Shown here: piece after piece, positions 4,107-31,159 of the stretch
Layout of the letters: each line of letters starts with the position of its first letter
Position numbering within the stretch: the first letter of the stretch is position 1
DNA from: a virus
Reading direction: 5' to 3' (one strand)
Virus record (IMG/VR): IMGVR_UViG_3300027608_002862
Location: 1 to 64,000 of that record
DNA: 64,000 bases
Notes under the pieces: generated by a model
Told to the model about the DNA's origin: nothing
Databases searched by the model: none
The model's input: the letters and a program-made list of their open reading frames with translations, nothing else
Position numbers and translations under genes: made by a program

Positions 4107-4177
4107 ATATGAAAGCCTATCAATTCATTGTAGCAATTCTTATTGTTGTATTTGTATTGATTGAAGTTTTCATGTAA

Positions 4178-4531
4178 GGAATTGTTGTAATCCCTTCAAA
4201 GTGAAGGCATTCTGGACGCGGGTTCGACTCCCGCCTCGTCCACCTAAGCATACTCCGAACCGAGTATTCTGGTAGCAAGGCTTTAGTGCCGAGTGTGCTT
4301 AGTTGGGCGAGCCATGGTTTCGACAGGGTGAGATAATAGAGACGGCAACACGGTAGGCGATGACCGTTAATCAAGCAAATAAACGTAAATGCAAACGCAG
4401 ATACATTTGACTTCAGTGCAATGAGCTTCACTGGTAACACCGTTCGCGGTGCTGCTAATGAAAGCAGATTTGCCCTAGCTGCCTAAAAAACAGCGGTCCG
4501 GGGTAGGACATACCTTGTAACCTAAACCACC
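4178..4531 (+). ncRNA. ssrA: Transfer-messenger RNA, circularly permuted two-piece form
   Basis: The gene order is reversed relative to standard tmRNA: the 3' (acceptor) part comes first, then the 5' (coding) part. T-arm 4218-4234 (GCGGG TTCGACT CCCGC) and 3' acceptor strand CTCGTCC 4235-4241 with discriminator A4242 pair with the 5' strand GGGCGAG at 4305-4311. The third pair is G·U, the alanine identity element. Helix H2 forms between CAGGGTG 4324-4330 and CATTCTG 4208-4214. A tag frame ends ANESRFALAA then TAA 4484-4486, and the stop sits in the loop of hairpin GCTG/CAGC (4478-4481 / 4491-4494), as in H5. Outer boundaries are estimates. It rescues stalled ribosomes and tags peptides for ClpXP-type proteases. 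CCA is not fully encoded (CCT follows A4242). Confidence 0.93.
4245..4301 (+). other. Intervening segment of the permuted tmRNA, with closing 11-bp stem
   Basis: Between the mature acceptor end and the mature 5' end, TAAGCATACTC (4245-4255) pairs with GAGTGTGCTTA (4291-4301) with a single wobble pair. This extends the acceptor stem in the precursor and would hold both mature ends for cleavage. It is expected to be removed, leaving two RNA pieces. Confidence 0.85.
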
Positions 4532-4560
4532 AAAAGCGGCTATTCGTAGCCGCTTTTTCT
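4532..4560 (+). terminator. Rho-independent terminator of tmRNA
   Basis: Stem GCGGCTA / TAGCCGC (4536-4542, 4547-4553) with a TTCG tetraloop, preceded by AAAA and followed by TTTTTCTT. Confidence 0.95.
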
Positions 4561-4589
4561 TGACATGCATAGCAGAAATACTATATACT
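4560..4589 (+). promoter_or_regulatory. Sigma-70-type promoter for the outer-membrane protein gene
   Basis: TTGACA at 4560-4565 and TATACT at 4584-4589 with an 18-base spacer, about 44 bases before the ATG at 4633. It starts at the end of the tmRNA terminator, so the next gene is an independent unit. Confidence 0.75.
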
Positions 4590-4632: not shown

Positions 4633-5190
4633 ATGAAGAAGTTTATCGTAGTGGCCGCTTTGAGCGCCGCAAGTACTGCCTTTGCTGGCGGGTTTGGTGC
4701 TGTTGAGTATAGCAGCCGTGATGGGGTAGATAGTACCGCAGATGCTCGCGCAACTAAAGTTACCATGGGCACAGACATTAACCAAATGTTCAAAGCTGAT
4801 TTCAGCTTGCGTCAAAAGACTGACAACAGTAACAATCTCAGCGACACACGTTTAGAAGCCGGTCTAACAGCTACACAGCCAGTCGGTGCAACTGGTCTCA
4901 GCGTGTACGGTCGTGCAGGTGTTGGTGAGAAGTTCAAGACTGCAACTAACTACAGCTACTACAGTGTAGAGCCAGGCATCAAGTATGCTGTAACTCCATC
5001 GCTTTCAGTTAAAGCAGGTTACCGTTATCGTGCAGCAATGGACAGCGTCAATGCTGACACCACACGCACATATCGCCTGAGTGCAGAGCACGCTCTAAGT
5101 AAGAATTATTTCGTTGGCCTAGGCTACGACAGTGTTCGTGGTGACAGCGATTACAATGCTACTAATATCAGCGTTGGTTTCAAGTTCTAA
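4633..5190 (+). CDS. Outer-membrane beta-barrel protein
   Basis: 185 residues. The signal peptide (MKKFIVVAALSAASTAFA) ends about residue 18. Then comes alternating-polarity sequence ending SVGFKF, the C-terminal aromatic typical of outer-membrane barrels inserted by BAM. Short strands and Tyr/Arg-rich turns suggest an 8-stranded OmpA/OmpW-like barrel. It has its own promoter and terminator, so it is probably well expressed. A phage-encoded surface protein could mask receptors (superinfection exclusion); that is inference. Confidence 0.8.
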   Translation: MKKFIVVAALSAASTAFAGGFGAVEYSSRDGVDSTADARATKVTMGTDINQMFKADFSLRQKTDNSNNLSDTRLEAGLTATQPVGATGLSVYGRAGVGEKFKTATNYSYYSVEPGIKYAVTPSLSVKAGYRYRAAMDSVNADTTRTYRLSAEHALSKNYFVGLGYDSVRGDSDYNATNISVGFKF

Positions 5191-5287: not shown

Positions 5288-5317
5288 TTGATTGCCTATT
5301 TCAATAGGATATATAAT
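5288..5317 (+). promoter_or_regulatory. Sigma-70-type promoter for rubrerythrin
   Basis: TTGATT 5288-5293 and TATAAT 5312-5317, 18-base spacer; the ATG follows at 5349 with AAGGAGA in front. Confidence 0.7.
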
Positions 5318-5348
5318 ATACACATACATTGACAAACAAGGAGACCCT

Positions 5349-5786
5349 ATGTCACAAACTGTAAAAGGTACACGTACCGAAGAAAATCTAAAAGCAGCTT
5401 TCGCGGGCGAGTCACAGGCCAATCGCCGATATCTATATTTCGCAAACATGGCTGATGTGGCCGGAGACAACGATATCTCTGCACTGTTCCGTAGCACAGC
5501 CGAAGGTGAAACAGGCCATGCACATGGTCATATGGAATACCTGATCGATGGTGGTTCGGGAGATCCTGCCACAGGCATGGCAGCCAAAACCACAGCAGAA
5601 GCACTAGAATCAGCTATACATGGTGAAACACACGAATACACAGACATGTACCCAGGTATGGCTAAAACTGCTCGTGATGAAGGACTGGACGAAATCGCTG
5701 ATTGGTTTGAGACCTTGGCCAAAGCAGAACGCAGTCATGCTAACCGTTTCACCAAAGCCCTGCAGGCACATAAAGCCAATCAATAA
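5349..5786 (+). CDS. Rubrerythrin (ferritin-like diiron protein without rubredoxin domain)
   Basis: 145 residues from the ATG at 5349, chosen because AAGGAGA sits before it and the promoter lies at 5288-5317; an upstream in-frame ATG would overlap that promoter. Diiron ligands are visible: E21 (GESQAN), E54xxH57, E93 region (HGETHEY), E127xxH130. The C-terminal rubredoxin-like CxxC domain of classical rubrerythrin is absent. The family reduces hydrogen peroxide. It would protect the infected cell from oxidative stress and fits with other redox genes here (glutaredoxin, heme oxygenase). Confidence 0.92.
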
Positions 5787-5789: not shown

Positions 5790-6203
5790 ATGCTAGAGTG
5801 CTTGATTATTGGAGACAGCATCGCAGTTGGAACAGCACAGGCAAGGCCTGAGTGTGTGAGCTATGCCCGAGGAGGTTGGAACTCTCAGCAGTGGAACAGA
5901 GATTATCTTGCCAAAGTCAGCAAGAGTCCTGCCAAGACCGTGATTATCAGCCTAGGTGCTAATGATCATGCTGGTGTGAGAAGTATTTGGGAATTGCAGA
6001 ACATGCGTAAAAATATTGCCGCTGATAGGGTATTTTGGATCGATCCTGGTCGTGATAGAAAACCTCTGGTACATGATGCTATAGTTATGTTGGCCAAAGA
6101 ATACGGTGATACGATTTTGTCAAGACCAAAAGCACACATGAGCGCCGACGGCATACATCCCACAGGTCGCGGATATCGAGAGTTGGCTGAGAAAACCAAA
6201 TGA
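5790..6203 (+). CDS. SGNH/GDSL-type hydrolase
   Basis: 137 residues, shorter than most of the family. Block I GDSIAVG (catalytic Ser at residue 10), the GAND block and the C-terminal DGIHPTGRGY with the catalytic Asp-His pair are all present. It hydrolyses esters; in phages such domains can deacetylate polysaccharides or act in wall degradation. No signal peptide. It starts 3 bases after rubrerythrin and is likely co-transcribed with it. Confidence 0.85.
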   Translation: MLECLIIGDSIAVGTAQARPECVSYARGGWNSQQWNRDYLAKVSKSPAKTVIISLGANDHAGVRSIWELQNMRKNIAADRVFWIDPGRDRKPLVHDAIVMLAKEYGDTILSRPKAHMSADGIHPTGRGYRELAEKTK

Positions 6204-6327
6204 CCATAATGATATTTGCTACGGTTATTTAATGATATTAACTATGTGTTCTGTGGCGAATCTGTCATATAATAGTGATACATACTAGCACAATACAGTA
6301 TGTAATTTATCAACAAAGGAGGATATT

Positions 6328-6399
6328 ATGTGGACCACACCAACAGCAACTGACATGCGTTTTGGTTTTGAAATCACTATGTATGTTATGAATAGATAA
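6328..6399 (+). CDS. pqqA: PqqA, ribosomally made precursor peptide of pyrroloquinoline quinone
   Basis: A 23-residue peptide with the complete PqqA pattern: MWTTPTATD, then RFGFEITMYVMNR. The Glu and Tyr that PqqE cross-links and that become PQQ are at positions 15 and 19 with the obligatory ExxxY spacing, matching the numbering in bacterial PqqA. A perfect ribosome-binding site AAAGGAGG (6315-6322) lies 5 bases before the ATG, and a strong terminator follows, so it is a stand-alone and probably abundant transcript. TATAAT at 6268-6273 may be its -10 box; no good -35 is seen. No pqqBCDE genes are visible, so host enzymes would be needed. The match covers the whole peptide, which makes chance unlikely. 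Confidence 0.92.
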   Translation: MWTTPTATDMRFGFEITMYVMNR

Positions 6400-6412
6400 T
6401 TTTGTAACATTG

Positions 6413-6440
6413 AAAAAGCGGCGATAAGCCGCTTTTTCTT
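6413..6440 (+). terminator. Rho-independent terminator of pqqA
   Basis: AAAAAGCGGC / GCCGCTTTTT (6413-6422, 6428-6437), loop GATAA, then CTT. Confidence 0.95.
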
Positions 6441-6515
6441 ACCTATCTTATCTTTTCGGTATATATATTAGACAAGATAAGACTTACCTATTATTGTTTC
6501 TATTTTGGAATTTAT

Positions 6516-7097
6516 ATGCAAAAATATATTGTAGTTAGCCCTGGAAGATCAGCCAGCAATAGTCTGAAAGCTCATATTGAAAACTCATTAGATAAATTAG
6601 GCACACCGAGAATCGTAGAAAATTTAGAAATGCCTATGATATGGCCCGAAATTCAAGAACAGCCAGAACAGTGGACTGTGGTAATTTGTACGAGAAAAGA
6701 CATGTTAGCGCAGGTATTGAGTTTCTACACAATAATGCTTACTAAACAAACCCATAAATTTAAAGATATCGCTCTAGAACCATTTGTTATTCCAAGAACA
6801 TATTTCTTTACGTTTGCACATGGTATTTTATTTTTCCATGAAAGAATTTTTAATATCAAAGAATGGCCGAAATTTAAAAATATACATTGGTTAATCTACG
6901 AAGATATAATTACTGATTGGCACGGAACCGGACAGATCTTAGGATTCGATGATTGGGCATCTGATTCTGATAAGCATTACATTGGATACGGACCGGTCTG
7001 GGACAAAGTCATTAACAAAAAAGAAGTGTTAGATTGGGTACAAGAACTGCAAATCAATTATCGGTTCACTACAGAAAAGGAAAAATATAAATTATGA
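6516..7097 (+). CDS. Sulfotransferase-like protein
   Basis: 193 residues. N-terminal SPGRSASNSL (residues 8-17) fits the PAPS-binding P-loop of sulfotransferases. TRKDMLAQVLSFY near residue 70 fits the 3'-phosphate-binding region, and WLIYEDII resembles the later conserved block. Such enzymes move sulfate from PAPS to sugars, lipids or proteins. The next gene, overlapping by 4 bases, begins with a kinase domain that could make the donor. Family-level call; substrate unknown. Confidence 0.65.
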   Translation: MQKYIVVSPGRSASNSLKAHIENSLDKLGTPRIVENLEMPMIWPEIQEQPEQWTVVICTRKDMLAQVLSFYTIMLTKQTHKFKDIALEPFVIPRTYFFTFAHGILFFHERIFNIKEWPKFKNIHWLIYEDIITDWHGTGQILGFDDWASDSDKHYIGYGPVWDKVINKKEVLDWVQELQINYRFTTEKEKYKL

Positions 7098-13921: not shown

Positions 13922-15826
13922 ATGTCTAAGATCATCGGTATTGACCTCGGCACCACCAACTCATGCGTGGCTGTTATCGAGAACGGAATTCCCAAAGTTA
14001 TTGAAAACAACGAAGGTGCTAGAACTACACCTAGTATCGTGGCATATGCCAACGACGAAGTGTTAGTCGGTGCATCAGCCAAGCGTCAGGCAGTAACTAA
14101 TCCAAAAAACACAATCTACGCCAGCAAGAGATTGATTGGTCGCAAGTTCAAAGAACAGGCCATACAAAAAGATCTTGACTTGATGCCATATGAAATCATG
14201 GAAGCCAGTAATGGTGATGCATGGGTACGAGCCGCAGGCAAAGAACTAGCACCCCCACAGATTTCCGCAGAAGTTCTGCGTAAAATGAAAAAGACCGCAG
14301 AAGATTATCTTGGAACCACAGTCACGCAGGCAGTGATCACTGTACCGGCCTATTTCAATGACAGCCAAAGACAAGCTACCAAGGATGCTGGCAAGATCGC
14401 TGGGCTAGAAGTTCTACGTATTATCAACGAACCTACCGCGGCTGCACTGAGCTATGGTGTAGACAAACAGGACAAGGCAGACAGAAAAATTGCTGTCTAC
14501 GATCTAGGTGGTGGTACCTTTGATGTGTCTATAATCGAAATTGCTAACGTTGACGGAGAAAAGCAGATTGAAGTATTGAGTACCAATGGAGATACATTCT
14601 TAGGCGGTGAAGACTTTGATCAACGCATCATGGACTATTTGGTAGAAGAGTTCAAGAAAGATCAGGGTGTGGATCTGACTAAAGATATGTTGGCGTTACA
14701 GAGACTTAAAGAATCAGCAGAAAAAGCCAAGATTGAACTTTCAAGTTCTGCACAGACTGATGTGAATCTGCCTTATATCACTGCAGATGCCAGCGGTCCA
14801 CGTCACATGAACATCAAGATCACTCGCAGCAAACTAGAAAGTTTGGTTGCTGAATTGATAACACGCTCTATAGAACCCTGCAAGACTGCTATGAAAGATG
14901 CAGGGGTCACTGCTGCTGACATAGATGAAGTTATCCTAGTGGGTGGAATGACACGTATGCCTAAGGTGCAAGAAGCTGTGGAAGCACTGTTTGGTAAAGC
15001 ACCTCGCAGAGATGTGAACCCAGACGAAGCAGTGGCTGTAGGTGCTGCCATACAGGGTGCAGTGTTGGGTGGTGATCGTAAAGATGTATTGTTATTGGAC
15101 GTGACTCCGTTGAGCCTTGGTATTGAAACACTGGGCGGTGTGATGACGAAAATCATACAGAAAAACACCACTATCCCTACCAAAGGACAACAGACATTCT
15201 CCACAGCAGACGACAATCAACCTGCAGTGACCATCAAGGTGTTCCAAGGTGAGCGTGAACTGGTGCAGCATAACAAATTGCTAGGTGAATTTAATCTAGA
15301 AGGTATCGCACCTGCTCGCAGAGGCCAGCCCCAGATCGAAGTCACATTTGATATTGATGCTAATGGTATCATGCATATCTCTGCCAAAGACAAAAGCACA
15401 GGCAAAGAAAATAAAATCACTATCAAATCCAACAGTGGGCTCAGCGATGCAGAAATACAGGCCATGATCAAAGATGCAGAACTCAATGCTGAAGCAGACA
15501 AGAAAGCTCGTGAATTGATCGATGTGAAAAATTCTGCAGAAGCACAGATCCATGAAGTGAAAAAAGATCTCGAAGAATTCCGCAGTGACCTCACTGATGC
15601 GGAAATTACAGAACTTGAAACTGTGATCAAAGAAGTAGAAGAAGCAGTCAAAGGTGATGACAAAGAAAAAATCACCGAAGCACTCAACAAAGTTTTCCCT
15701 GCAATGAAAACATTGCTGGAAAAAAGGCAGGCCAAAGATCAAGCACAAGCACAAGCTGATGCAGGATCGATGCCTGGCCAAGATGATGTAGTTGATGCTA
15801 CCTTCACAGAGAAGAAAGCAGACTAA
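13922..15826 (+). CDS. dnaK: DnaK (Hsp70 chaperone)
   Basis: 634 residues, full length. Nucleotide-binding domain motifs [22 protein letters not shown] and VGGMTRMP are intact, followed by the substrate domain and lid, ending [14 protein letters not shown], which differs slightly from the bacterial EEVKDKK tail. It uses ATP to fold or hold client proteins. No DnaJ or GrpE is seen here, so host partners are needed. SD AAAGGAGA. A complete hsp70 gene in a phage is rare; with hsp20 directly downstream it forms a chaperone pair. Confidence 0.97.
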
Positions 15827-19075: not shown

Positions 19076-19522
19076 ATGTGTAGGAAAGCCATAGTGTCAG
19101 CAGCACTGATCTTTGCATGTGCTCACGTACAGGCTGAGTTAGTGCATCAATTCCAAAGTCCAGCCTTTATTCCAGGCAATGGATATAGTTCACACGTACT
19201 AAGTATCTATCAACTAGAAGAAAATCGTAAGAAAGAAATAAAAGCTGAGGAATCAGCGGCATTACTCAAAGCAGAAACTGCCGCCAAGCAGACTAATTTA
19301 TCAAAATTCCTAGTGAACGTAGAAGCACGTATCTACGCACAACTATCCAAACAACTAGCTGATCAGATGTTCACTGACAGTGGTGCCACTAGTGGCACAA
19401 TGGATTTCCAAGGCACGAATATAAGTTGGGTCAAAACAGGAACAGATGTTACACTGACCATTATCGAAGCCAATGGCAGCCGCACTGAAATCACTGTACC
19501 TATAGCGAGCTTTGCATTCTAA
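19076..19522 (+). CDS. csgF: CsgF-like curli assembly protein
   Basis: 148 residues with a signal peptide ending VQA (residue 20). The mature start ELVHQFQSPAF.PGNG matches the CsgF N-terminus, which plugs into the CsgG pore, and GTDVTLTIIEANGSRTEITV matches its C-terminal strand region; the middle helix is Lys/Glu rich. It overlaps csgG by one base (TAATG). SD GGGAGCGAA. CsgF and CsgG form the outer-membrane curli exit gate. Confidence 0.82.
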   Translation: MCRKAIVSAALIFACAHVQAELVHQFQSPAFIPGNGYSSHVLSIYQLEENRKKEIKAEESAALLKAETAAKQTNLSKFLVNVEARIYAQLSKQLADQMFTDSGATSGTMDFQGTNISWVKTGTDVTLTIIEANGSRTEITVPIASFAF

Positions 19523-20769
19523 TGAAACGACTGATGTTATCATTCTTGATGGTCAGCACATTATCAGGCTGTGCTACCATACACATGGACACCGCCAAGG
19601 AAGAACCTGTGGCGCTGAAACCCCGAGAAAATCTGACCATAAAGATTCCATCGTTGGATGGACCACCTATCGCTATTGCTGTTTATGGCTTTCAAGACAA
19701 GACCGGCCAAATGAAGCCCAATGATAGATTGGCTGTGTTTTCAAAAGCCGTGACGCAGGGTGCCGAAGTGTTCCTAATCAAATCACTTCAAGACTCAAAG
19801 AATTGGTTTAAAGTAGTAGAGCGTGTGGGCCTAGACAACCTTATCAAAGAACGTCAATTGATTCGCAACCAACGAGAAGTCTACGAAGGCAAAGATGCCA
19901 AGGCCTTGAAACCAATGACGGTGGCTGGGGTGATGATAGAAGGTGGCATCATCGGCTACGACAGTAATATACGCAGTGGCGGTAATGGTGCTAGGTTTCT
20001 AGGCATTGGAGGCAGTCAACAGTATCGCGTAGACGAAATTGTTATCAGCCTAAGATTGATCAGTGTGAACAGTGGAGAAGTATTATTGACCAACGCTGTG
20101 AGCAAAACCATCTACAGTACACAGCATAACGTAGGTGTTCTACGGTTTGTAGATGCAGGAACCAAAGCATTAGAATTAGAAAATGGTCAGGCCTTGAATG
20201 AACCTACTACCTATGCAGTGCGTGTGGCCATTGAACAGGCGGTCTATGACATGATCGTGGAAGGTGAAAAGAAAGGTCTATGGAGATACAAGGTAGAAAA
20301 ACCTGCGGTCATAGAAGAGAAAAAAGATCAAGCAGTTGTGCCACAGGCCCCGATCTCTCCGCAACCACCTATTACTGTTGAGCCTGTGAAACAAGAAAAT
20401 AAAGATCCAGAACAAAAAGTTGAGACTGCGATTGAAAAAATCTCAAGAGTAGTTCCTGTACAACCTCCGCAGATTCCAGTAATAGAGAAAAAAGCAGATG
20501 TTGAGGAAAAAGTAGATCAACCAACGGGTGTGATTACCCAACCAGATAGTGGTAAAACTAGTACACCATTATGGAGTCCTAGATATCTAAAACAAGATTC
20601 GTTTGTGTATAAAGAACCCGATGAAAAAAGCCAACGTACTTGGCAGTTGAAAAAAGGAACAGAATTTAATATCATTTCTCCAGGACCGGAGGGATGGCAT
20701 TATGTAACGGACGCGGAGAAGCGTAAAGGGTATGTGCGAACTGACGTGCTTTCAGAACACAAACCATAA
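19522..20769 (+). CDS. csgG: CsgG-like curli secretion pore with C-terminal SH3-like extension
   Basis: 415 residues, longer than CsgG (about 277). Lipobox LSGC (Cys 17). The core shows PPIAIAVYGFQDKTGQMKP, VTQGAEVFLIKSL, VERVGLDNLIKERQLIRNQRE and a membrane-hairpin region QYRVDEIVISLRLI, all typical of CsgG, which makes a nonameric outer-membrane channel. From about residue 255 a Pro/Glu/Lys linker leads to an SH3b-like domain (residues about 350-412, ending EGWHYVTDAEKRKGYVRTDVL) that may bind peptidoglycan. csgG-csgF pairs have been reported in marine phages. Confidence 0.9.
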   Translation: MKRLMLSFLMVSTLSGCATIHMDTAKEEPVALKPRENLTIKIPSLDGPPIAIAVYGFQDKTGQMKPNDRLAVFSKAVTQGAEVFLIKSLQDSKNWFKVVERVGLDNLIKERQLIRNQREVYEGKDAKALKPMTVAGVMIEGGIIGYDSNIRSGGNGARFLGIGGSQQYRVDEIVISLRLISVNSGEVLLTNAVSKTIYSTQHNVGVLRFVDAGTKALELENGQALNEPTTYAVRVAIEQAVYDMIVEGEKKGLWRYKVEKPAVIEEKKDQAVVPQAPISPQPPITVEPVKQENKDPEQKVETAIEKISRVVPVQPPQIPVIEKKADVEEKVDQPTGVITQPDSGKTSTPLWSPRYLKQDSFVYKEPDEKSQRTWQLKKGTEFNIISPGPEGWHYVTDAEKRKGYVRTDVLSEHKP

Positions 20770-20851
20770 TGAGTCAAGCATTGGAGACAATTTAACAACA
20801 CTAAAAATATGGATGCATTATAAACCTTAACTTGCATCTGGAGCGAATATA

Positions 20852-21523
20852 ATGAAAAAAAGAATCACAGGCGGTGGCGGGTTGTCGAGAAAATTACTTG
20901 CAAGTCTAATGATGGCTGGAACGCTGTCATCGGGAGCGTGGGCCAACGATGTTTATGTTGAACAAATTGGTGACAATTCAACGGTTTCTATCACCCAAAC
21001 AGGTGCTGGTAATCTAGTGAACGGTAATGTTGATGGTACAGGTAATACAGACGACGCCGCTATAATTAGGGGTGACCTCAATGATGTAACCATAAATCAA
21101 ATTGGTGCCAGTAACACCGTAAAGATGATAATCAACAACGAATCTAACGGCACTGGTTCAACAGTAGTGATATCCGCAGACGGCAGCAACAACAATCAAA
21201 CTGTTGGTTGCGGCACAGCATTGAGTTCGACATGTAATGCAAGCATTATTAGATCGGAAATTATCGGTAACAATAACAATACAGTTCAAACCCTCAGTGG
21301 CGGTGTGGTACAGAGTAAGATTGCTATCACCGGTAATTACAACAATGTGACGCATACTGCAAGTGGCGCAGGGTCACACAACGGTGAGATCACTGTTACT
21401 GGCAGCGGTACTATCAGTATTGCTAATGCAGTGACACTAACACAAAGTGGAGCGATGACTAAAAATGCGGTTATTACCAGCAACGGTTCTAATAACAACG
21501 TTATCGTTACTCAGTCCGATTAA
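20852..21523 (+). CDS. Curlin-repeat (CsgA/CsgB-like) secreted protein
   Basis: 223 residues. A long signal peptide ends AWA (about residue 31). The mature sequence is built of degenerate curlin-type repeats: VEQIGDNSTVSITQTGAGN, NQIGASNTV, GSNNNQTV, GNNNNTVQ, GNYNNVT, NGSNNNVIVTQ. These form stacked beta-arches in amyloid curli. Two Cys (VGCGTALSSTC) are unusual for curlin. SD TGGAGCGAA. It is the natural cargo for the CsgFG pore upstream. Whether it polymerises is unknown. Confidence 0.85.
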   Translation: MKKRITGGGGLSRKLLASLMMAGTLSSGAWANDVYVEQIGDNSTVSITQTGAGNLVNGNVDGTGNTDDAAIIRGDLNDVTINQIGASNTVKMIINNESNGTGSTVVISADGSNNNQTVGCGTALSSTCNASIIRSEIIGNNNNTVQTLSGGVVQSKIAITGNYNNVTHTASGAGSHNGEITVTGSGTISIANAVTLTQSGAMTKNAVITSNGSNNNVIVTQSD

Positions 21524-22568
21524 CAGTTGGGCTACTGTTGGTAAAGTTACTGAACAGACCGGACCGACTGAGATAATAAGAGACAAGAAGAGCATATCTT
21601 CTAGCCTTAACACGGCCGTGAAAATGAATGATGCGGTCAGCACAGCCAAGGCCCGGGCAGAGCTGACCTTTGAGGACGCGACCAAAGTAAAACTCACAGA
21701 GCATTCAAAAATGATCATAGATGATTTTGTCTACGATCCCAAGAAAGGTTCTGGCAAATTGGCCATCAACATGGCCTTGGGCACAGCTAGGTATGCCAGT
21801 GGACAAATCGCCAAAAATAATCCTCAGCAGGTGGCAATTAAAACTCCTACGGCTACCATCGCTGTTCGAGGTACAGACTTTTCTATGACCGTAGATGAAC
21901 TAGGGCGCAGCTTGGTCATGCTGCTGCCCAGTTGTGATGCCCGAGGAGGTTGTGTTACTGGAGTAATCGAAGTCAGTAGCCTAGCAGGGGTAGTGGTGTT
22001 AGATGTGCCGTTCCAGGCCACGCTGGTAAACAGCGCCTATCAACGTCCTAGCGACCCTGTGGTAATTAAAATTGATCAGGCTAATATCAACAACATGCTG
22101 ATCATAAGTAAACCACAAGAAATACAAGAAGATGTTCGAGCAGGAATAAACAAGAAAGAAAAAGGATTATTAGATTTCAATTTACTAGATATAGACCTGT
22201 TAAAATATAATGCACTAGAAGAAAACAAATTAGATGACAACAAGGCCTTGGATCGAAACGACCTTAACACTGACCTATTGGCCTACAACGCATTGAACGA
22301 ATTAGACAGACAGAACGCATCATTGCTCAACGATGAACTAGACATACCAGTGTTGCCGGGGTATGCATCTAACAAGTCATTGGGCCTGTTATATTATTTC
22401 AATGACGATCAAAGCAAAGTCACATTGTACAAAGCTGGAACACACAACGCCACTGCCACATTTGATACCACAAAGAATGTTACCTTTACTCTGATACAAG
22501 ACGGCCAGACCATAATACAAAATGTCAATAAAGGAAGTACCAGCACAATAATCGTTACACAGAATTAA
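21465..22568 (+). CDS. FecR-domain secreted protein
   Basis: 367 residues. The ATG at 21465 gives a clear signal peptide ending SWA (residue 23); it lies 59 bases inside the curlin gene in another frame. FecR domain: VGKVTEQTGPTEIIR, FEDATKVKLTEHS, then TPTATIAVRGTDF. The second half has repeated LLDFNLLDIDLLKYNAL-type Leu/Asp-rich units. Outer-membrane FecR-domain proteins often partner with surface fibres. Its position right after the curlin gene suggests an accessory of that system. Confidence 0.78.
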   Translation: MRLLPATVLITTLSLLSPINSWATVGKVTEQTGPTEIIRDKKSISSSLNTAVKMNDAVSTAKARAELTFEDATKVKLTEHSKMIIDDFVYDPKKGSGKLAINMALGTARYASGQIAKNNPQQVAIKTPTATIAVRGTDFSMTVDELGRSLVMLLPSCDARGGCVTGVIEVSSLAGVVVLDVPFQATLVNSAYQRPSDPVVIKIDQANINNMLIISKPQEIQEDVRAGINKKEKGLLDFNLLDIDLLKYNALEENKLDDNKALDRNDLNTDLLAYNALNELDRQNASLLNDELDIPVLPGYASNKSLGLLYYFNDDQSKVTLYKAGTHNATATFDTTKNVTFTLIQDGQTIIQNVNKGSTSTIIVTQN

Positions 22569-22648
22569 CTCAGCATTTTTATTTCAGTGATACCGCTGTA
22601 AATAATTATATCCAACACCTATAACAATAATAAAGTTGGGGAGCGAAA

Positions 22649-24697
22649 ATGAAAAAACAATTAATTGCAACAATAGTTGCCGCTATGCTATCAGCGTCGG
22701 CATTGGCAGGAAATGAAATATTAGTAAATGAATTTATAAAAGCAGGAGTGAATGAGTCCACAGGTACGCTGGGAAGTGGAGGAAACACCAATCCAGGACT
22801 ACAGTACGATAACACTGGTACTGGAACATTTAACTCTGCATACGATTATCTAACACCAGGTTCGCCCTATGAGGGTTGGGCTGTTCGTATAGATAACGCA
22901 GACGGAACGAAGTTCAAGTTATACGGTAACAACAATGCTGGATTCCAAATGGACGGTAACATTCCTGTAACTGGAGCATGGGTTGGCACACCTACTGCGG
23001 CATCTGCGATATGGGCAGGTACCGCAACAGAATTCGGTATTAGACATACCTACAGTTTGCCATCAGCACAGCGTTATTTAGACATCACCACACGTATTGA
23101 GGCTACCGCCGCAATGCCGCATTTGTACTTTGGTCGTTACATTGATCCAGATGCTGTGGCAGCACCTGGCGACAGTTCAGCAACTGACAACGTTCGTGGC
23201 TACGGTATTATTCCAAAGACCAACGTTGTATTCTCAGAAGCAACTGTGAGTCGTTATGCTCTTGGTTTATACTCAGCACAAGTTGGAACTGTTAATACAA
23301 GTATACAAGGTTGGACAAGTGATCCAAAGAACTACTACCTAAATACAAACGGTCGTGCTGATGTTAGCAACGGTGATGACACTATAGGTATTGCATTCTA
23401 TGCAGCCAATGTTGCAGTAGGCGATATCCTAACATACAACTATGCTTACATCTTTGGACCAAGTGCGTTTACTGCGGCCAACTATGCTATAACAGGTGGG
23501 GCTGGCGGCGGCACAGCAGGTACAAGTAGTTTTGGTACACTGGTAGACGTTGGCAGTGCCACTGATGCGGGATCAGGTACTACCACGACTCCAACTATCA
23601 CTGGTACATCAACTGCGACCATTACTGTGAGTGATACCACTGTGGTGAACACAAGCCTTCCAGTCATCACTGCTAGCCTTGCTCACCACGACGCCAGCGA
23701 AGCCAGTGGTAAGCAGACTATTGCTCGCGAGACCACAACCAATGTGACCACGCCATATACACGTTCTGTTGTCACGCTGGTTAGAACCACCAATACATGG
23801 AGTGATGGTACGACTACAACATCCGACAGCGCCACTACAACTAGCGATACGCTGATCAACGATGTGACCACTACTGTAGCCAATGATTCATTCAGCGGTC
23901 GTGTCGACCAAATGTCGTATCTATCTAATTTGAATCAACAATTAGATCGTGGCCTAAACATGGATGCTTTCCGTCAAGACGGTTACACAGATCAAGATAA
24001 AAAAGTCACGGTATATGTGAATGCCAGTGGTGCGAGATCAAACATAGATAATGGTTACAACGCTAAGAGTCAAATCTATGGCCTAGGTGTCGAAAAAGAA
24101 ATCAACCCAAACTGGAGATTAGGTGCTCAATACAATCGTGTGAATACTACCATGGACGGCACAGATTCTAAAACAGCACAAGACAAAAATCACGTTGGTA
24201 TGTTCTCTGTGTATACAGCAGAAAATGATGTTAAGATTGTCAACAACTTAGGTTACTCTAATAATGCAGTCAAAGGCAATCGCACCATAGAAAATGTTTT
24301 TAATAACAGTCATAGTACCAACGGCGAAAATGTTTGGTTGAACAACAGGATCTATGCTCCAGAGACCAATGGATTACGTCCATACGCCGGTGTAACTGTT
24401 GGACGTTCAACTATAGGCGGCTACACAGAAGCAGGTGATATTCAGAGTGCTAGAACTGTGGCTAAAATCGTAGACAACTACACATACGGTGAAGCCGGTG
24501 TACGTTATGAAAAAGCCATCAACAAGTTTCGTTTAATCGGTGACGTCGGCACAACAACAGATTCCGTAACCACAGGTTCAGCCACAGTTGCGTATTCTCC
24601 AACAAAAATCGGCACTATTGCGTTAACAGCAGCGACACAACAAGGTAATAATATCAATACTAACACAATTTCACTTAACGGCATAATTAGATTCTAA
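22649..24697 (+). CDS. Autotransporter-like outer-membrane protein
   Basis: 682 residues. Signal peptide MKKQLIATIVAAMLSASALA. Passenger region (21-280) is Gly/Thr/Asn-rich beta-type sequence, then a Thr/Ser/Val low-complexity linker (about 290-420, TTTTPTITGTSTATITV). The last about 270 residues (from QMSYLSNLNQQLDRGLN) form a barrel ending NTISLNGIIRF, the terminal-Phe signature of autotransporters. SD GGGGAGCGAA. It is encoded directly after the curli-like module and could display an adhesin or shield the surface. Confidence 0.8.
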   Translation: MKKQLIATIVAAMLSASALAGNEILVNEFIKAGVNESTGTLGSGGNTNPGLQYDNTGTGTFNSAYDYLTPGSPYEGWAVRIDNADGTKFKLYGNNNAGFQMDGNIPVTGAWVGTPTAASAIWAGTATEFGIRHTYSLPSAQRYLDITTRIEATAAMPHLYFGRYIDPDAVAAPGDSSATDNVRGYGIIPKTNVVFSEATVSRYALGLYSAQVGTVNTSIQGWTSDPKNYYLNTNGRADVSNGDDTIGIAFYAANVAVGDILTYNYAYIFGPSAFTAANYAITGGAGGGTAGTSSFGTLVDVGSATDAGSGTTTTPTITGTSTATITVSDTTVVNTSLPVITASLAHHDASEASGKQTIARETTTNVTTPYTRSVVTLVRTTNTWSDGTTTTSDSATTTSDTLINDVTTTVANDSFSGRVDQMSYLSNLNQQLDRGLNMDAFRQDGYTDQDKKVTVYVNASGARSNIDNGYNAKSQIYGLGVEKEINPNWRLGAQYNRVNTTMDGTDSKTAQDKNHVGMFSVYTAENDVKIVNNLGYSNNAVKGNRTIENVFNNSHSTNGENVWLNNRIYAPETNGLRPYAGVTVGRSTIGGYTEAGDIQSARTVAKIVDNYTYGEAGVRYEKAINKFRLIGDVGTTTDSVTTGSATVAYSPTKIGTIALTAATQQGNNINTNTISLNGIIRF

Positions 24698-24725
24698 TAA
24701 TAACAATAGGGCATAGCCCACCTAC

Positions 24726-24750
24726 AAAGTCCGCTGCGGCGGACTTTTTT
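24726..24750 (+). terminator. Rho-independent terminator
   Basis: AAGTCCGC / GCGGACTT (24727-24734, 24739-24746), loop TGCG, then TTTT; ends the secreted-protein block. Confidence 0.93.
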
Positions 24751-24777
24751 ATTAAATATAGTTTTAAGGAGTAAGCC

Positions 24778-25113
24778 ATGCGTATATTAGCATTGGCGTT
24801 CCTATTCTGCCTAATTAGCTCTATAGCCGACGCCCAGGAATCAGTACCAGCATTCACAGATACTGTAATGAAGGATACTTCGTTAATTGCGTTAGGTCAG
24901 CAGGTATGGGACAGTCAGTGTCGACATTGCCACGGCAACAGTGCGTATCCCGGCAAGGCGCCCAAACTCAAATCTTCCAGTTACCAACCTGACTTTGTCT
25001 ACGATCGAGTGACCAATGGATTTCGCAAAATGCCTGCTTGGCGAGATATCTTTAACGAAAGGCAGCGTGTTGGTGTAACTGTATACATAATGAGTTCTGA
25101 ATTTTCACCTTGA
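24778..25113 (+). CDS. Periplasmic c-type cytochrome
   Basis: 111 residues. Signal peptide ends near IADA (residue 19). Single heme motif CRHCH (C48, C51, H52) and a likely axial Met85 in RKMPAW give a class I cytochrome c fold of minimal size. It carries electrons in the periplasm. Heme attachment needs the host Ccm machinery. SD AAGGAG. With pqqA in the same phage, a role as electron acceptor for a PQQ enzyme is possible but unproven. Confidence 0.9.
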   Translation: MRILALAFLFCLISSIADAQESVPAFTDTVMKDTSLIALGQQVWDSQCRHCHGNSAYPGKAPKLKSSSYQPDFVYDRVTNGFRKMPAWRDIFNERQRVGVTVYIMSSEFSP

Positions 25114-25157
25114 AATTTCAAATATATTCTGGTAAATATATGTTTAAGGAGCCGGTA

Positions 25158-25451
25158 ATGCGTTCACTGCTACTGGCGTTCCTCGTCTGCTCATCCAGCC
25201 TAGTTAACGCCCAATTTCAATACGATTATCCATTGTTGTGCGACCGCACTGCAAAGATCATACAAAGTCTAGGAGACAACTGGAAAGAAACGCTGACTTG
25301 GAGTGGAAAACACACCAGTGACAACAGTGTTTATAGTCTGTGGGTCAATGAAAAAGAAGGAACATGGACATTATTAAAGATGACATCAGAAGTTTCATGT
25401 ATACTTGGAACGGGCGAGGAATCTAAAATTACACTAGGTACACCTATATAA
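25158..25451 (+). CDS. Small secreted protein
   Basis: 97 residues from the ATG at 25158 (AAGGAGCCGGTA upstream); the earlier start would place the signal peptide internally. Signal peptide MRSLLLAFLVCSSSLVNA is nearly the same as that of the cytochrome gene, and both genes share the leader TAAATATA..TTTAAGGAG, so these upstream parts look duplicated. The mature part holds two Cys and YSLWVNEKEGTWTLLKM; not recognised. Confidence 0.7.
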   Translation: MRSLLLAFLVCSSSLVNAQFQYDYPLLCDRTAKIIQSLGDNWKETLTWSGKHTSDNSVYSLWVNEKEGTWTLLKMTSEVSCILGTGEESKITLGTPI

Positions 25452-25468
25452 ACTAACCAAGGAACACA

Positions 25469-25624
25469 ATGACTGACGACGATTTCAAAAGACATTTACA
25501 CCGCCAACTAGAAGAAGATAAGAAAAACCACGGACAACTGACCAATAGAATATTTGCCAAAGCTAGAACAAAACCCGCAAATAAATACAGTCATGAGAAA
25601 TCAACTAAAAAAAATCCTTACTAA
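25469..25624 (+). CDS. Small charged protein
   Basis: 51 residues, rich in Lys, Asp, His and Arg (MTDDDFKRHLHRQLEEDKKN). AAGGAACACA precedes the ATG. It overlaps the start of the cyclase gene by 32 bases. No family recognised; real-gene status rests on the SD and operon position. Confidence 0.45.
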   Translation: MTDDDFKRHLHRQLEEDKKNHGQLTNRIFAKARTKPANKYSHEKSTKKNPY

Positions 25625-27644
25625 TCCGTGGACAGCACTGCTGACATTGGCACTTATTATAAGTATAAGAATCGCTGATCCTGTCTTTGTAGAGAGCATA
25701 AGACTACGCTACTTTGATACACTGATCACTGCCAAAGAAATCACAGACAACAACATCTATACGGTCAACATAGATGAAAGTGCTTTGGACAAATATGGGC
25801 AATGGCCATTACCGAGAGAAGAGTATGCGAAAATTATTAAAGATCTCTATGATCGCGGCGCTGGCCTTGTTGTGCTTAACATTATCATGGCTGAGCCTGA
25901 TCGTACTGGTGGTGGTGATGTTCTCGCAAATGCTCTAAAAAAGTATCCTGTGATACTAGGGTCAGTGCCTAGTGGAAAAACCAAAAACACGCCACGCAAG
26001 CCGGGTAGTGCAGTTATAGGACCTGAGTGGCAGGATCAAATTGTGCAGTATCCTGGATTAATTGCCAATATATCGAAATTAGAAAACAGCGCAGCGGGCA
26101 TAGGTATTGTTTCAACCCTGCCAGAAGTTGATGGAGTGAATCGGCGCATACCATTAGTGGTCAGTGTCAACGATAATTTGTATCCCAGTCTAAGTTTAGA
26201 AACTCTACGTGCTGCTGCAGGCGATTCTACCTTCCAGATCAAACTAAACGAATACGGTGTTGAGAAAATGCGTATTCCAAAGTTTGGTCCTATCAGCACA
26301 GATCCATTAGGACGTATATGGATTGACTGGAGTCAGCAGAATAAATCAGTGAGTATAACTAACTTGCCTAAAGACTTTGGAGGAGCTGTCGTTATAGTAG
26401 GTCCGACAGCCGCAGGAATCAGTAATCCCTTGCCAACCAGCATAGGCGCAGTGTTCCCGCATGATGTACAGGCCAGTGTGATTGCCACTATGGCAAATGG
26501 AGTGGTTATAGAAAGACCCGACTATGCAGACGGCGTAGAAATTATTGCAATTCTAGCTGCGGGATTATTATTATTGTTTTTAACGAGGTGGGTATATGCG
26601 GGACTTGCGAGTGTTATCATTATATGTATTGGCGTGGTCTTTGGCAGTCACTACGCTTTCTCTAATTTTCTATTCTTATTTGATGCTACTGCCATTCTTG
26701 TTGGCACAGTCTTGGTCGCTTTGCATGCCTATGGTGTCAAGTTTGTAAGCGAGTTCTTACAGAAGCAGGCCATTAAGAAACAGTTTGAGGGATATGCCAG
26801 TCCCACAGTGGTCAAACTCTTGCAGGAAAATCCAGACATTATCAAGAACGGAACCAAGCGTGAAGTATCTATAGTGTTTTCCGACCTACGTGGCTTTACC
26901 CCTCTCGGTGAAAGTTTTGGAGATGATGTCAAAGGACTAACAGCAGTGATGAATGGTTACATGGATGCCATCACTCAGCCTGTGTTAGATGCTGATGGTA
27001 TGATCATCAAATATATTGGTGATGCCAGCATGCACATCCATAACGCACCTATAGATGATCCTCACCACGCCAAGACCGCAGTGGCCACTGGACTCAAGAT
27101 GTTGAAGGCTGTAAAAGAATTCAGCATCAAGTTAGAAGCCACAGGACGTCCAGGAGTCAAAATGGGCGCAGGTATCAATACTGGTCTAGGTTATATAGGA
27201 GAGATGGGATCAACTCGACGCCATTCGTATGATGTCTTAGGTGATGCAGTTTCCACAGCCGCACGTATTGAAAGCAAATGCAAAGAATACGGGTGTGTGC
27301 TATTAGTCGGCGGTGCCACAGTAGAACAGTGTGGTGATGATTTCTTCTTCCTAAAAGTAGATGACCTAGCAGTCAAGGGCAAGACAGTAGGGGTAGCTAT
27401 TTACACAGTGTTGGACGATGTCGCTGCTGACTATCACGTGTCTAAGAAAATACACAATGCCATGCATGGTGCATACAGATCACAGAATTTCAGCACAGCG
27501 ATTAGCATGTGCAAACAGCTGAGAGATCAATTCGACGGTAGATTAACTGGCTATTATGATATGTGGATAGAGCGATGTGAGTTCCAATTGACACAGAAAT
27601 TACCTGCAGATTGGAATGGTGTTTTTATAGCTACCAGCAAATAG
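25593..27644 (+). CDS. CHASE2-domain class III nucleotidyl cyclase
   Basis: 683 residues from the ATG at 25593 (a longer form lacks an SD). One N-terminal membrane segment, a periplasmic CHASE2 domain (about 25-300; VNIDESALDKYGQWPLPREEYAK, then NIIMAEPDRTGGGDV), three membrane segments (about 305-385), then a class III cyclase catalytic domain with VFSDLRGFTPLGE (metal Asp), KYIGDASMHIHNAP and DVLGDAVSTAARIE. It would make cAMP or cGMP in response to an envelope signal. Such a receptor is unusual in a phage. Confidence 0.9.
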   Translation: MRNQLKKILTNPWTALLTLALIISIRIADPVFVESIRLRYFDTLITAKEITDNNIYTVNIDESALDKYGQWPLPREEYAKIIKDLYDRGAGLVVLNIIMAEPDRTGGGDVLANALKKYPVILGSVPSGKTKNTPRKPGSAVIGPEWQDQIVQYPGLIANISKLENSAAGIGIVSTLPEVDGVNRRIPLVVSVNDNLYPSLSLETLRAAAGDSTFQIKLNEYGVEKMRIPKFGPISTDPLGRIWIDWSQQNKSVSITNLPKDFGGAVVIVGPTAAGISNPLPTSIGAVFPHDVQASVIATMANGVVIERPDYADGVEIIAILAAGLLLLFLTRWVYAGLASVIIICIGVVFGSHYAFSNFLFLFDATAILVGTVLVALHAYGVKFVSEFLQKQAIKKQFEGYASPTVVKLLQENPDIIKNGTKREVSIVFSDLRGFTPLGESFGDDVKGLTAVMNGYMDAITQPVLDADGMIIKYIGDASMHIHNAPIDDPHHAKTAVATGLKMLKAVKEFSIKLEATGRPGVKMGAGINTGLGYIGEMGSTRRHSYDVLGDAVSTAARIESKCKEYGCVLLVGGATVEQCGDDFFFLKVDDLAVKGKTVGVAIYTVLDDVAADYHVSKKIHNAMHGAYRSQNFSTAISMCKQLRDQFDGRLTGYYDMWIERCEFQLTQKLPADWNGVFIATSK

Positions 27645-27648
27645 ATTG

Positions 27649-27987
27649 TTACTTCTTTGGCTCCTCAGATTTATCAGAGCCGACTAATGCATCTTTGAAC
27701 TTGGCATTGGCTTCTTCTTCAGTTTTCTGTTGCTCTATCACACGCTCTGATTCGATGATCTTACCACGCAGATGTAGAACTGTATTGACCTTTTGATTCA
27801 ATCTGATCAAATCGTTGTCTAACATGCGTATTCTGTCAATCAGTGCTATCAGCACTGTGTTGGCTTCGTTTAGAACGGGTTTGACTTCTTTGGTGGCCCA
27901 AGTCCATACATAGAAAATCATGTAGCCCATACCACCGGCGGCCACGATAGGAAACCCGTATTTGTTAATCAGCGATACCACGTCCAT
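27649..27987 (-). CDS. Small membrane/coiled-coil protein, holin-like
   Basis: 112 residues with one N-terminal membrane segment (YGFPIVAAGGMGYMIFYVW) then a long charged helix. The layout and FPI..A motif match the product of 28513-28794, so the two are paralogues; both recall BhlA/UviB-type holin-like proteins. SD AAGGAG lies upstream. It is the last gene of a leftward cluster and converges with the cyclase gene, leaving 4 bases between their stops. Confidence 0.65.
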   Translation of the reverse strand: MDVVSLINKYGFPIVAAGGMGYMIFYVWTWATKEVKPVLNEANTVLIALIDRIRMLDNDLIRLNQKVNTVLHLRGKIIESERVIEQQKTEEEANAKFKDALVGSDKSEEPKK

Positions 27988-28132
27988 TTGTCATCTCCTT
28001 GTCGTTCCAAACTTCACCCCAGGGGTTCCATATTTTCTTTGATTTTATTTTTGGTTCTTTATAGTACCAAACTGCCACAGAGATCAATACTAGGCATTCT
28101 AACAAATAGAACACCATGAATGCTTCAAACAT
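27965..28132 (-). CDS. Small membrane protein
   Basis: 55 residues with an N-terminal hydrophobic helix (FMVFYLLECLVLISVAVWYY) and a basic/Trp-rich tail. Its start overlaps the upstream stop (GGATGATG), and its end overlaps the next gene by 23 bases. It fills the gap in a tight leftward cluster of membrane genes. No family recognised. Confidence 0.6.
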   Translation of the reverse strand: MFEAFMVFYLLECLVLISVAVWYYKEPKIKSKKIWNPWGEVWNDKEMTNGRGIAD

Positions 28133-28332
28133 CATCCCACCAACGGTCTAATCGCACTGACCACGGGCTGATAGGCCCATTCAAATCCTACTAATACTCC
28201 AACGATGAATCCAATTACAGCACCTATCAATGATGATTTAAATAGATCTCTTCCATGGTAAATGGGCTGTGACTCTAGATAAGTTTTCGTATTCTCAGGT
28301 AAATTGTCATACCATTGTTGATATTTGCTCAT
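28132..28332 (-). CDS. Small membrane protein with glycine-zipper-like helix
   Basis: 66 residues: a soluble start (MSKYQQWYDNLPENTKTYLE) and a hydrophobic helix SSLIGAVIGFIVGVLVGFEW with spaced glycines, suggesting helix packing or oligomerisation in the membrane. It overlaps the gene before it. Function unknown; possibly part of a lysis or membrane-remodelling set. Confidence 0.65.
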   Translation of the reverse strand: MSKYQQWYDNLPENTKTYLESQPIYHGRDLFKSSLIGAVIGFIVGVLVGFEWAYQPVVSAIRPLVG

Positions 28333-28516
28333 TTCGCTCTCCGTCTTTGATAAATTTTACTAAAGGATCTACTTTTTTAAGATAGCAGCGACCATTGACA
28401 TTTACCAATTGAAAATAATCCCCGTCTCGCCAACCTAGCTTATCAGCATTAAATTCTTCATCTAATATAATACCGCTAGGGGAACAGTCCCAAGAATAAT
28501 CAATGTATAACATCAA
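28307..28516 (-). CDS. Small soluble phage protein
   Basis: 69 residues. ADKLGWRDGDYFQLVNVNGRCYLKKVDPL reads as a small beta-barrel-like domain, similar to short uncharacterised T4-like proteins. It overlaps neighbours on both sides (ATGA-type), so it belongs to the leftward operon. Confidence 0.65.
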   Translation of the reverse strand: MMLYIDYSWDCSPSGIILDEEFNADKLGWRDGDYFQLVNVNGRCYLKKVDPLVKFIKDGERNEQISTMV

Positions 28517-28794
28517 TCTCTCCTTGCATCGTTCTTGCCATCTGCACGAGCTATACGTTCTACATCTGGACGAAGACCCAAGGCATTAGACACTACAGCA
28601 TCTATGCGTATAACATCGTGATTCATGGTTTTAACGCGGTTATCTAGGGCTGTGATTATGCCGCTCAAACCTTTTACTGAACTCATAACAGAGCCTAATA
28701 CCAATTTGAGGGTTAGAAATACAAAGTATCCGCCTGCCAGCGCCGCAGCGATTGGAAATCCTAGTTCTGCTACTAATTTAAAAAATTCGCCCAT
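28513..28794 (-). CDS. Small membrane/coiled-coil protein, holin-like (paralogue of 27649-27987)
   Basis: 93 residues from the ATG at 28794, chosen for the GGGAGCGAA ribosome-binding site in front; the longer form would run into the divergent promoter region. The membrane helix (FPIAAALAGGYFVFLTLKLVL) is followed by a helix with a recurring TALDNRVKTMNHDVIR pattern that matches ALIDRIRMLDNDLIR in the paralogue. First gene of the leftward cluster. A TTAAATAC element lies upstream on this strand. Confidence 0.65.
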   Translation of the reverse strand: MGEFFKLVAELGFPIAAALAGGYFVFLTLKLVLGSVMSSVKGLSGIITALDNRVKTMNHDVIRIDAVVSNALGLRPDVERIARADGKNDARRD

Positions 28795-28831
28795 CGATTC
28801 GCTCCCGGGTTTTATACGTGTATTTAACCGA

Positions 28832-28860
28832 TTGACAAAATAAATAACTGATGCTATAAT
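28832..28860 (+). promoter_or_regulatory. Sigma-70-type promoter
   Basis: TTGACA 28832-28837, 17-base spacer, TATAAT 28855-28860: full consensus. It drives the rightward cluster from 28889. Confidence 0.9.
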
Positions 28861-28888
28861 ATACACATATTAAGCAAGAGAGACTTTA

Positions 28889-29692: not shown

Positions 29693-30084
29693 ACATAACT
29701 GTTTACAGTCGGAACCGCCTGTACGAAACATTCTCTAAGTGGGATGTTCCTCGCGACTTTGCAGACCCCATGGCTAATTATTTGGTCTACGGATACAGTC
29801 CTGGCCACTTCTTTACTTCTGTTTTAGCCAATGACTTCCATGGTGCTATGGCTCACAGTCATCCTGTTAACACCATAGAAGCATTGAAAAATCTAAGTGG
29901 ATGGATTTCAGACTGCATGCCTCGTGAAGCTCACGGCAGTTACGATTTTGTCAGCAATTGGTGCTACCTACCTCCACAAGCTCGTAGGCTTGTGCTCGAA
30001 AAGACTAATTTGATCTACACTGAACAAGAAGAAGTGATGTTGGCTCTTCGAGATGAATCTACAGTTGAACCTGTGCTGTTTTGA
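29689..30084 (+). CDS. Conserved phage protein, unknown function
   Basis: 131 residues, MNITVYSRNRLYETFSKWDVPRDF at the start, with WDVPRDFADPMANYLVYGYSPGHFFTSVLANDF-type sequence that I associate with T4-like phage hypotheticals. No catalytic motif is clear. Overlaps the phosphoesterase stop by 4 bases. Confidence 0.65.
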   Translation: MNITVYSRNRLYETFSKWDVPRDFADPMANYLVYGYSPGHFFTSVLANDFHGAMAHSHPVNTIEALKNLSGWISDCMPREAHGSYDFVSNWCYLPPQARRLVLEKTNLIYTEQEEVMLALRDESTVEPVLF

Positions 30085-30097
30085 AAGAGATGAAGAT

Positions 30098-30415
30098 ATG
30101 ATGTCAGAACACCAAAGACTTATGGCTCTGCTCAAAGGACCTGATTGGTATGCTCATGAATCAGGAAAAGATCTACTTGCGGTACTAAATCAAGGTAAAA
30201 GAAAAAGATACAAGTCTATGAATTCCACAGCAGACAAACATATATTGACCATCATGAATCTGTTTGATAAAGAACCTGCAGTAAGGATCCTCAAGACTTG
30301 GTTAAGTACCTACAAGTTACCGTTGGATCCAAATAGGCTAAAAACGTTTGATCAGTTCCATGAACAGTTTGGCAAATTTATCATCAACAACACAACGATA
30401 ATTGAAAGTTATTGA
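30098..30415 (+). CDS. Phage protein, unknown function
   Basis: 105 residues from tandem ATGs at 30098/30101 after GAAAGAGATGAAG; a longer form would overlap the preceding gene by 32 bases. Mostly helical and charged; not recognised. Confidence 0.6.
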   Translation: MMSEHQRLMALLKGPDWYAHESGKDLLAVLNQGKRKRYKSMNSTADKHILTIMNLFDKEPAVRILKTWLSTYKLPLDPNRLKTFDQFHEQFGKFIINNTTIIESY

Positions 30416-30425
30416 AAGCAGCAGT

Positions 30426-30884
30426 ATGAAAAAAATCTATTACGAAAAAGTTGGACGCAGGTATGTGCCTGTGTCAGAATACGACGGCGACTTTATGGAC
30501 AGCTACACCCACGGTACACATTTGCTCATGGTGTATCCTGGTGGCCAAAGTCGCCGGTACAACATTGACCCAGCATATGCTCCTATGATTGCCGCTGGCC
30601 GTGTTGCTGAAGATGCTGTATGTCGAGCTATTAGCAAGGCCAGTGAAATGCGACCACAGCGTACTCCAATTACTCCTAGCCAAAAAAAGGCCTGGGAAAA
30701 GTTGGCTAAAGAATTGGGCGATGAGCTGGCCACTCTTAACGGATTGTGTATTCGTGATTGTGCTGAGGCCGGCATTCAAGCCATGCAGGAAGAAGCAGAC
30801 AAACTTATGAAACATGAGAGTGTTCGTAAATCATATGAACATTTTTTATTAATGTGTGAACTTACAAAGGAGACAGAGCAATGA
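30426..30884 (+). CDS. Phage protein, unknown function
   Basis: 152 residues from the ATG at 30426. The N-terminal part has YEKVGRRYVPVSEYD and GTHLLMVYPGGQSRRYNIDPAYAPMIAAG, a pattern shared by several uncharacterised large-phage proteins. C-terminal half helical. Overlaps the next start (ATGA). Confidence 0.65.
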   Translation: MKKIYYEKVGRRYVPVSEYDGDFMDSYTHGTHLLMVYPGGQSRRYNIDPAYAPMIAAGRVAEDAVCRAISKASEMRPQRTPITPSQKKAWEKLAKELGDELATLNGLCIRDCAEAGIQAMQEEADKLMKHESVRKSYEHFLLMCELTKETEQ

Positions 30885-31126
30885 TAGCAGAACAAATGGC
30901 CATTTGGTTGGTAGGAAGTATTTTATTTGCTTTGGGCAGTATAGTGCTGATTTTCGGATTGATATTGATCAACAATCTCTTGCACAAATATTGGAAACCA
31001 GTGACCATAGTGTTTTTTAGAAATGAAAGCATTTATCCAAAAATACGTTATAGCGTTCCAGAAGATTTTGAATACAAAGAGCCCAACTTTGAGCAACAAA
31101 AAGACATTGACAACACGAAGAATTAG
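30881..31126 (+). CDS. Small membrane protein
   Basis: 81 residues; one long hydrophobic N-terminal helix (residues 8-33) and a polar tail with many Glu/Lys. SD AAGGAGACAGAGC. Unknown function. Confidence 0.65.
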   Translation: MIAEQMAIWLVGSILFALGSIVLIFGLILINNLLHKYWKPVTIVFFRNESIYPKIRYSVPEDFEYKEPNFEQQKDIDNTKN

Positions 31127-31135: not shown

Positions 31136-31159
31136 AGCACATTAAATGAAAGGATTATC

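Follow-up and report, generated by a model that had tools for sequence, protein, structure and literature searches.

The window, a 64,000-nucleotide stretch of a 68,060-base virus record in IMG/VR, contains a 23-codon gene whose product, judged from its sequence, is a genuine PqqA, the precursor peptide of PQQ (Table 1). The first-pass annotation had named the peptide PqqA and proposed a search against PF08042; it scores 38.7 bits against that profile (E=9.3e-10, cut-off 21.1) and 37.7 bits against the NCBIfam equivalog TIGR02107 (cut-off 20), above both curated cut-offs, and the entire record contains no second PqqA match. Glu15 and Tyr19 can be read in the translation with the ExxxY spacing intact, as had been claimed. 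In known PqqAs, the Glu and Tyr of this motif are the residues joined by PqqE, forming the PQQ skeleton. The peptide resembles the family (PF08042, TIGR02107) in length, in its W/P start, in RFGFE and ExxxY and in its C-terminal N-K/R, but differs in being phage-encoded, alone, away from pqqBCDE and behind a phage-specific 5' hairpin. The match and the accompanying signals go far beyond chance; a search of solved structures with PqqA gave no match.

Table 1. Features of the pqqA locus in the window (positions in the 64,000-nucleotide stretch)
Feature	Position	Strand	Basis or remark
Rubrerythrin, pqqA neighbour	5292..5786	+	Pfam
PQQ box TTTAATGATATTAACTAT, putative activator site common to bacterial pqqA	6228..6245	+	motif discovery, viral matrix
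-10 hexamer TATAAT	6268..6273	+	40 nt past box start; without consensus -35
Inverted repeat TACATACT-N10-AGTATGTA, predicted 5'-terminal mRNA hairpin	6279..6304	+	begins at expected transcription start
Shine-Dalgarno AAAGGAGG	6315..6322	+	sequence; 5 nt ahead of ATG
pqqA, 23-aa PQQ precursor peptide MWTTPTATDMRFGFEITMYVMNR	6328..6399	+	translation, Pfam and NCBIfam profiles
Intrinsic terminator, 11-bp stem, 5-nt loop	6412..6438	+	folding

The Shine-Dalgarno and the terminator that the first-pass annotation assigned to the gene are both present. An SD-like motif lies ahead of 127 of 127 viral pqqA copies, and the 66-nt stretch that includes the window's terminator folds at -23.5 kcal/mol (z -6.2). 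As to the claim that the gene has its own promoter, a generic sigma-70 scan finds none at the window's pqqA, which the promoter's make-up explains: a TATAAT hexamer follows an upstream element that we call the PQQ box, and this box takes the place of a -35. A low-stringency Rfam search of 6150-6520 yielded nothing above the gathering score.

Linkage of pqqA to pqqBCDE is typical but not required, and many bacteria have orphan copies. The window's pqqA is not so linked: tblastn with PqqB, PqqC, PqqD and PqqE found none of them in the window, and PqqE is missing from the full 68,060-base record. The earlier description of a gene without other pqq genes, alone on its own transcription unit, is supported by these results. 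Other viral pqqA loci likewise stand apart from the rest of the pathway: none of those searched has PqqB, PqqC, PqqD or PqqE by tblastn, and the same queries match 24-39 of 119 bacterial pqqA loci. In 50 viral records searched from end to end, no PqqE match reaches its cut-off. Weak matches to the PqqE model in three viral records fell far below the cut-off and were taken as other radical SAM proteins. The window itself encodes radical SAM proteins of unassigned function at 37682-39139, 57880-58806, 60147-61310 and 61303-62286, none near the PqqE model.

Phage genomes that carry pqqA

Proteins of the window's record match an endolysin and, weakly, a baseplate hub; neither terminase nor gp23 was found in its 68 kb. 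It shares 49 of 107 ORFs with the viral record G031 and 16 with G017. A T4-type gp23 (major capsid protein, E<1e-80) is encoded in G006 (356 kb), G013, G017 and G034, and these pqqA carriers are therefore phages. These phage-type matches, the ORFs shared with G031 and with the gp23-bearing G017, and the presence of pqqA in cultured phages place the window's gene on a bona fide phage genome. G031 is closely collinear with the window and its pqqA lies in the corresponding region, but on the opposite side of a GDSL-like gene. In G017 too a rubrerythrin gene lies near pqqA, about 0.5 kb upstream, and its product is 88% identical to that of the window. G011 is partly collinear, with window 19522-28866 corresponding to G011 30006-47630.

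The window also encodes a full-length DnaK of 634 aa (13922-15826; 80% identical in G031), a 696-aa protein with CHASE2 and adenylate/guanylate cyclase catalytic domains (25554-27644; 68% in G031, 49% in G011), an autotransporter beta-domain protein and an outer-membrane beta-barrel protein (22649-24697 and 4633-5190), and 29 tRNA genes with a permuted tmRNA (36739-43668 and 4153-4577).

A PQQ_2 domain or PQQ dehydrogenase is absent from the 68-kb record, a linear and probably incomplete sequence. Besides pqqA, the partly collinear G011 (72 kb) encodes a PQQ dehydrogenase of 624 aa that belongs to the methanol/ethanol family (TIGR03075, 607.9 bits) and is XoxF-like by our reading of its sequence. 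It is the one record with a recognisable PQQ dehydrogenase among the 50 viral records searched, many of which are fragments. Directly upstream of this dehydrogenase gene is one for a curlin-like repeat protein (L249 3-881).

In 50,697 phage records, tblastn of PqqA matched nine from Methylophilales phages (P19250A, Venkman, MEP301, MEP401, MEP402 and four Melnitz isolates), one from a spring-water phage and two labelled 'Acinetobacter phage'. We set aside 'Acinetobacter phage MD-2021a' as a carrier: CAKLQF020000010.1 holds a bacterial pqqABCDE operon with other chromosomal genes and looks like mislabelled bacterial DNA, and CAKLQH020000055.1 gives the same pqqA match. The cultured OM43/LD28 phages (P19250A, Venkman, MEP301, MEP401/402, Melnitz) resemble the window in that each has a stand-alone pqqA of 23-24 aa, but they belong to other phage lineages. 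With MEP401 DNA as the query, similarity to other Methylophilales phages, MEP402 excepted, is limited to about 60-95 bases around pqqA. The first-pass annotation had expected the gene to escape ordinary gene callers, and pqqA lacks annotation as such in all ten genuine phage records that carry it; in six of the ten there is nothing annotated, or a 'hypothetical protein' (ctXG6705, four Melnitz), on the opposite strand where inspected. At 72 bases, pqqA is short enough to have been overlooked in phages for that reason.

Two pattern scans of IMG/VR each found at least 120 viral contigs with pqqA. The second pattern fixed residues 1-14 in part and left Glu and Tyr free, yet Glu15, Tyr19 and the 23-residue length are kept in 120 of 120 peptides among the matches listed, which bears out the conservation that the first-pass annotation had required of related phages. 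Dropping one codon from this pattern left no matches. One identical peptide is specified by 18 different DNA sequences, and pN/pS is 0.32 over 114 distinct genes, calculated on codons outside the first search pattern; this value replaces the 0.17 obtained over all codons, which is biased by the pattern. By these sequence comparisons, phage pqqA is real, selected and widespread. One member of the viral set, L120, looks bacterial by its peptide and has no clear box.

The first-pass annotation knew of no described phage pqqA, but one was published in 2020, when Coutinho et al. (PMC7678222) described the Lake Baikal phage population VP_266 as encoding PqqA together with methanol dehydrogenase. The Methylophilaceae phages VP_266 and VP_139 of that study share with the present case a phage PqqA, a T4-like affiliation, a methylotroph host and a proposed boost to methanol oxidation; the window's record differs from the VP_266 type, which has methanol dehydrogenase, in lacking a PQQ dehydrogenase domain. 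The same paper gives PqqA for VP_266 only and states that P19250A lacks such genes, contrary to our finding of pqqA in that phage. A 2026 reservoir study (PMC13188868) includes pqqA, pqqE and pqqD of viruses in its set of phosphorus genes, and the publications describing Melnitz, Venkman and MEP401/402 make no mention of phage pqqA. In the literature searched, phage pqqA has been described once and never generalised, and it is far commoner than that report implies. What is new here is the PQQ box common to viral and bacterial pqqA, the phage-specific 5' hairpin and the PQQ dehydrogenase in a partly collinear relative.

The PQQ box and the 5' hairpin

Enriched words upstream of pqqA were followed by motif discovery, run separately on the viral and bacterial sets. 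The viral motif, aTTaATGATTTTC.tTAt, is found in 94% of sequences with a log-likelihood ratio of 602 (73 in shuffles), and the bacterial sequences independently gave CTCATGATTTTCcTTAGt. When a matrix built from bacteria only was applied to the viral loci, the best match of the whole locus lay upstream of pqqA, no more than 165 nt away, in 78 of 104, where 2.65 were expected. The window is absent from those 78, as the bacterial matrix scores its box 9.8, fourth in the 64 kb. When the window and its relatives are left out of the training set, a viral matrix scores the window's box 17.7 bits, the top match in 64 kb (next 11.9), and its top match is also upstream of pqqA in G031, G013 and G017. 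The box is present in P19250A, Venkman, MEP301 and Melnitz, and MEP402 has no clear box. The -10 begins 39-40 nt from the box start in 48 of the 79 viral promoters whose -10 could be recognised, and the absent consensus -35 would fit an activator-dependent promoter.

The exact consensus occurs at 16 sites in eight bacterial genomes (one for the reversed pattern). Thirteen of the 16 are at PQQ genes, of which 11 precede pqqA copies, one precedes pqqBC and one, in a Methylophilaceae genome, precedes a homologue of PqqU (E=1e-86 to E. coli YncD; TonB_rec_PqqU is the best NCBIfam match of this incomplete sequence). Two of the remaining three precede a glycine-zipper protein and one an unknown gene; the glycine-zipper protein is outer-membrane-like, and its two boxes are in Methylotenera genomes (L333, L337). 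The box is shared by viral and bacterial pqqA and looks like the PQQ control element of the likely hosts themselves. Neither the box nor the 5' hairpin is described in the literature searched, which covered few subscription journals.

The inverted repeat between the -10 and the Shine-Dalgarno is the only ACATAC-N2-16-GTATGT repeat in the window. Stems of at least 6 bp occupy this interval in 56% of viral copies and in 17% of shuffles. The stem-loops vary in sequence and are constant in place, mostly beginning 3-9 nt past the -10, where the transcript is expected to start. Bacterial pqqA copies lack such an excess (10% vs 8% in shuffles). A 5'-terminal hairpin is predicted on viral, but not host, pqqA transcripts. 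Hairpins at the 5' end are known to shield mRNA from decay; an operator role for the repeat may also apply in the window's lineage.

Proposed PqqA supply in the infected methylotroph

All 49 genomes searched from bacterial taxa with window-type PqqA have pqqA, and pqqB-E adjoin many bacterial copies. The orphan copies of Methylophilaceae and Methylophaga are the closest bacterial parallel to the viral genes: there are several pqqA copies per genome, and the Methylophilaceae copies inspected have a PQQ box, but these genes are chromosomal and without the 5'-terminal hairpin. Methylophilaceae genomes have 1-12 copies, which would fit PqqA supply being a limiting step sensitive to gene dosage. 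The majority of the viral peptides match PqqA of Methylophilaceae and some resemble Burkholderiales types, with three peptide sequences identical between viruses and bacteria. The window's peptide is mixed, with D9 and I16 Burkholderiales-like and VMNR Methylophilaceae-like. Its DnaK is 73% identical to Burkholderiales and 70-71% to Methylophilaceae proteins, and comparison of the tmRNA DNA favours neither. From the C-terminus of the peptide we favour a Methylophilaceae host for the window's phage, with Burkholderiales also possible.

We consider it quite probable, as the first-pass annotation suggested, that the phage supplies consumable PqqA, borrows PqqB-E from the host and so sustains PQQ-dependent methanol oxidation. 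The gene would derive from a betaproteobacterial host, most likely a methylotroph, and selection would have retained it. It would be expressed as a short dedicated transcript of PQQ box, -10, 5' hairpin, Shine-Dalgarno, 23 codons and terminator. Host PqqD would bind the peptide, host PqqE would cross-link Glu15 to Tyr19, and host PqqB and PqqC with a protease would finish it to PQQ. Because one PqqA is spent for each PQQ made while the catalytic, stable enzymes persist, pqqA alone could be enough; PqqA would be the one pathway component to run short once host mRNA is lost in infection. The PQQ so raised would keep PQQ-dependent dehydrogenases going, above all XoxF-type methanol dehydrogenase, and methanol oxidation would supply phage replication with carbon and electrons, to the phage's benefit. 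Given pqqA in many unrelated methylotroph phages, it is likely that phages maintain PQQ, and with it methanol oxidation, while infection proceeds.

Extra PQQ could instead serve to close PqqU, the outer-membrane PQQ transporter that some phages use as receptor, thereby excluding superinfection or sparing progeny from adsorbing to debris. PQQ does close this receptor, blocking a PqqU-dependent E. coli phage (PMC12124388), and a PqqU homologue stands behind a PQQ box in the Methylophilaceae genome described above. Still, we think this improbable: it would require pqqA phages to use PqqU, pqqA is spread over many unrelated phage lineages that need not have a receptor in common, and the relative G011 has a PQQ dehydrogenase instead, which points to metabolism. 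Slightly less probable again is that the peptide or the box acts by titration of PqqD/PqqE or of a PQQ-responsive transcription factor, shutting down or rewiring host PQQ synthesis. A lone small peptide without partners, and a box common to phage and host, are what such a decoy might look like, but a titrating decoy does not need both cross-linked residues and the 23-residue length kept in 120 of 120 peptides among the matches listed, and G011 encodes an enzyme that uses PQQ. That pqqA is a host gene caught by chance, or host DNA mis-binned as viral, is very improbable: the 'Acinetobacter phage' record and the bacterial-looking L120 show that contamination occurs, but this explanation is contradicted by isolated, cultured phages, by pqqA in records with the T4-type capsid protein at E<1e-80, by synonymous change while the peptide is kept, by viral loci without other pqq genes and by the phage-specific 5' hairpin.

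With the supply of PqqA to host enzymes as the preferred reading, a broader proposition is one that we hold with less assurance, though we lean towards it: that unrelated methylotroph phages repeatedly took or kept the substrate peptide alone together with the host's PQQ-regulon box, and added the 5'-terminal hairpin, giving an mRNA that has a hairpin at either end and answers to the host regulator. If so, phages infecting methanol oxidisers would generally target PQQ supply, and the box would define an undescribed PQQ regulon of pqqA copies, pqqBCDE and PqqU.

Phage takeover is seldom considered to target cofactor supply, and what the phage would give in this case is a consumable peptide, not an enzyme. 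The PQQ box may provide a first handle on a PQQ regulator in the bacteria that have it. Among the important consumers of methanol in coastal and fresh waters are OM43/LD28-type cells, and, if this reading is true, PQQ may limit methanol oxidation in such cells when they are infected.
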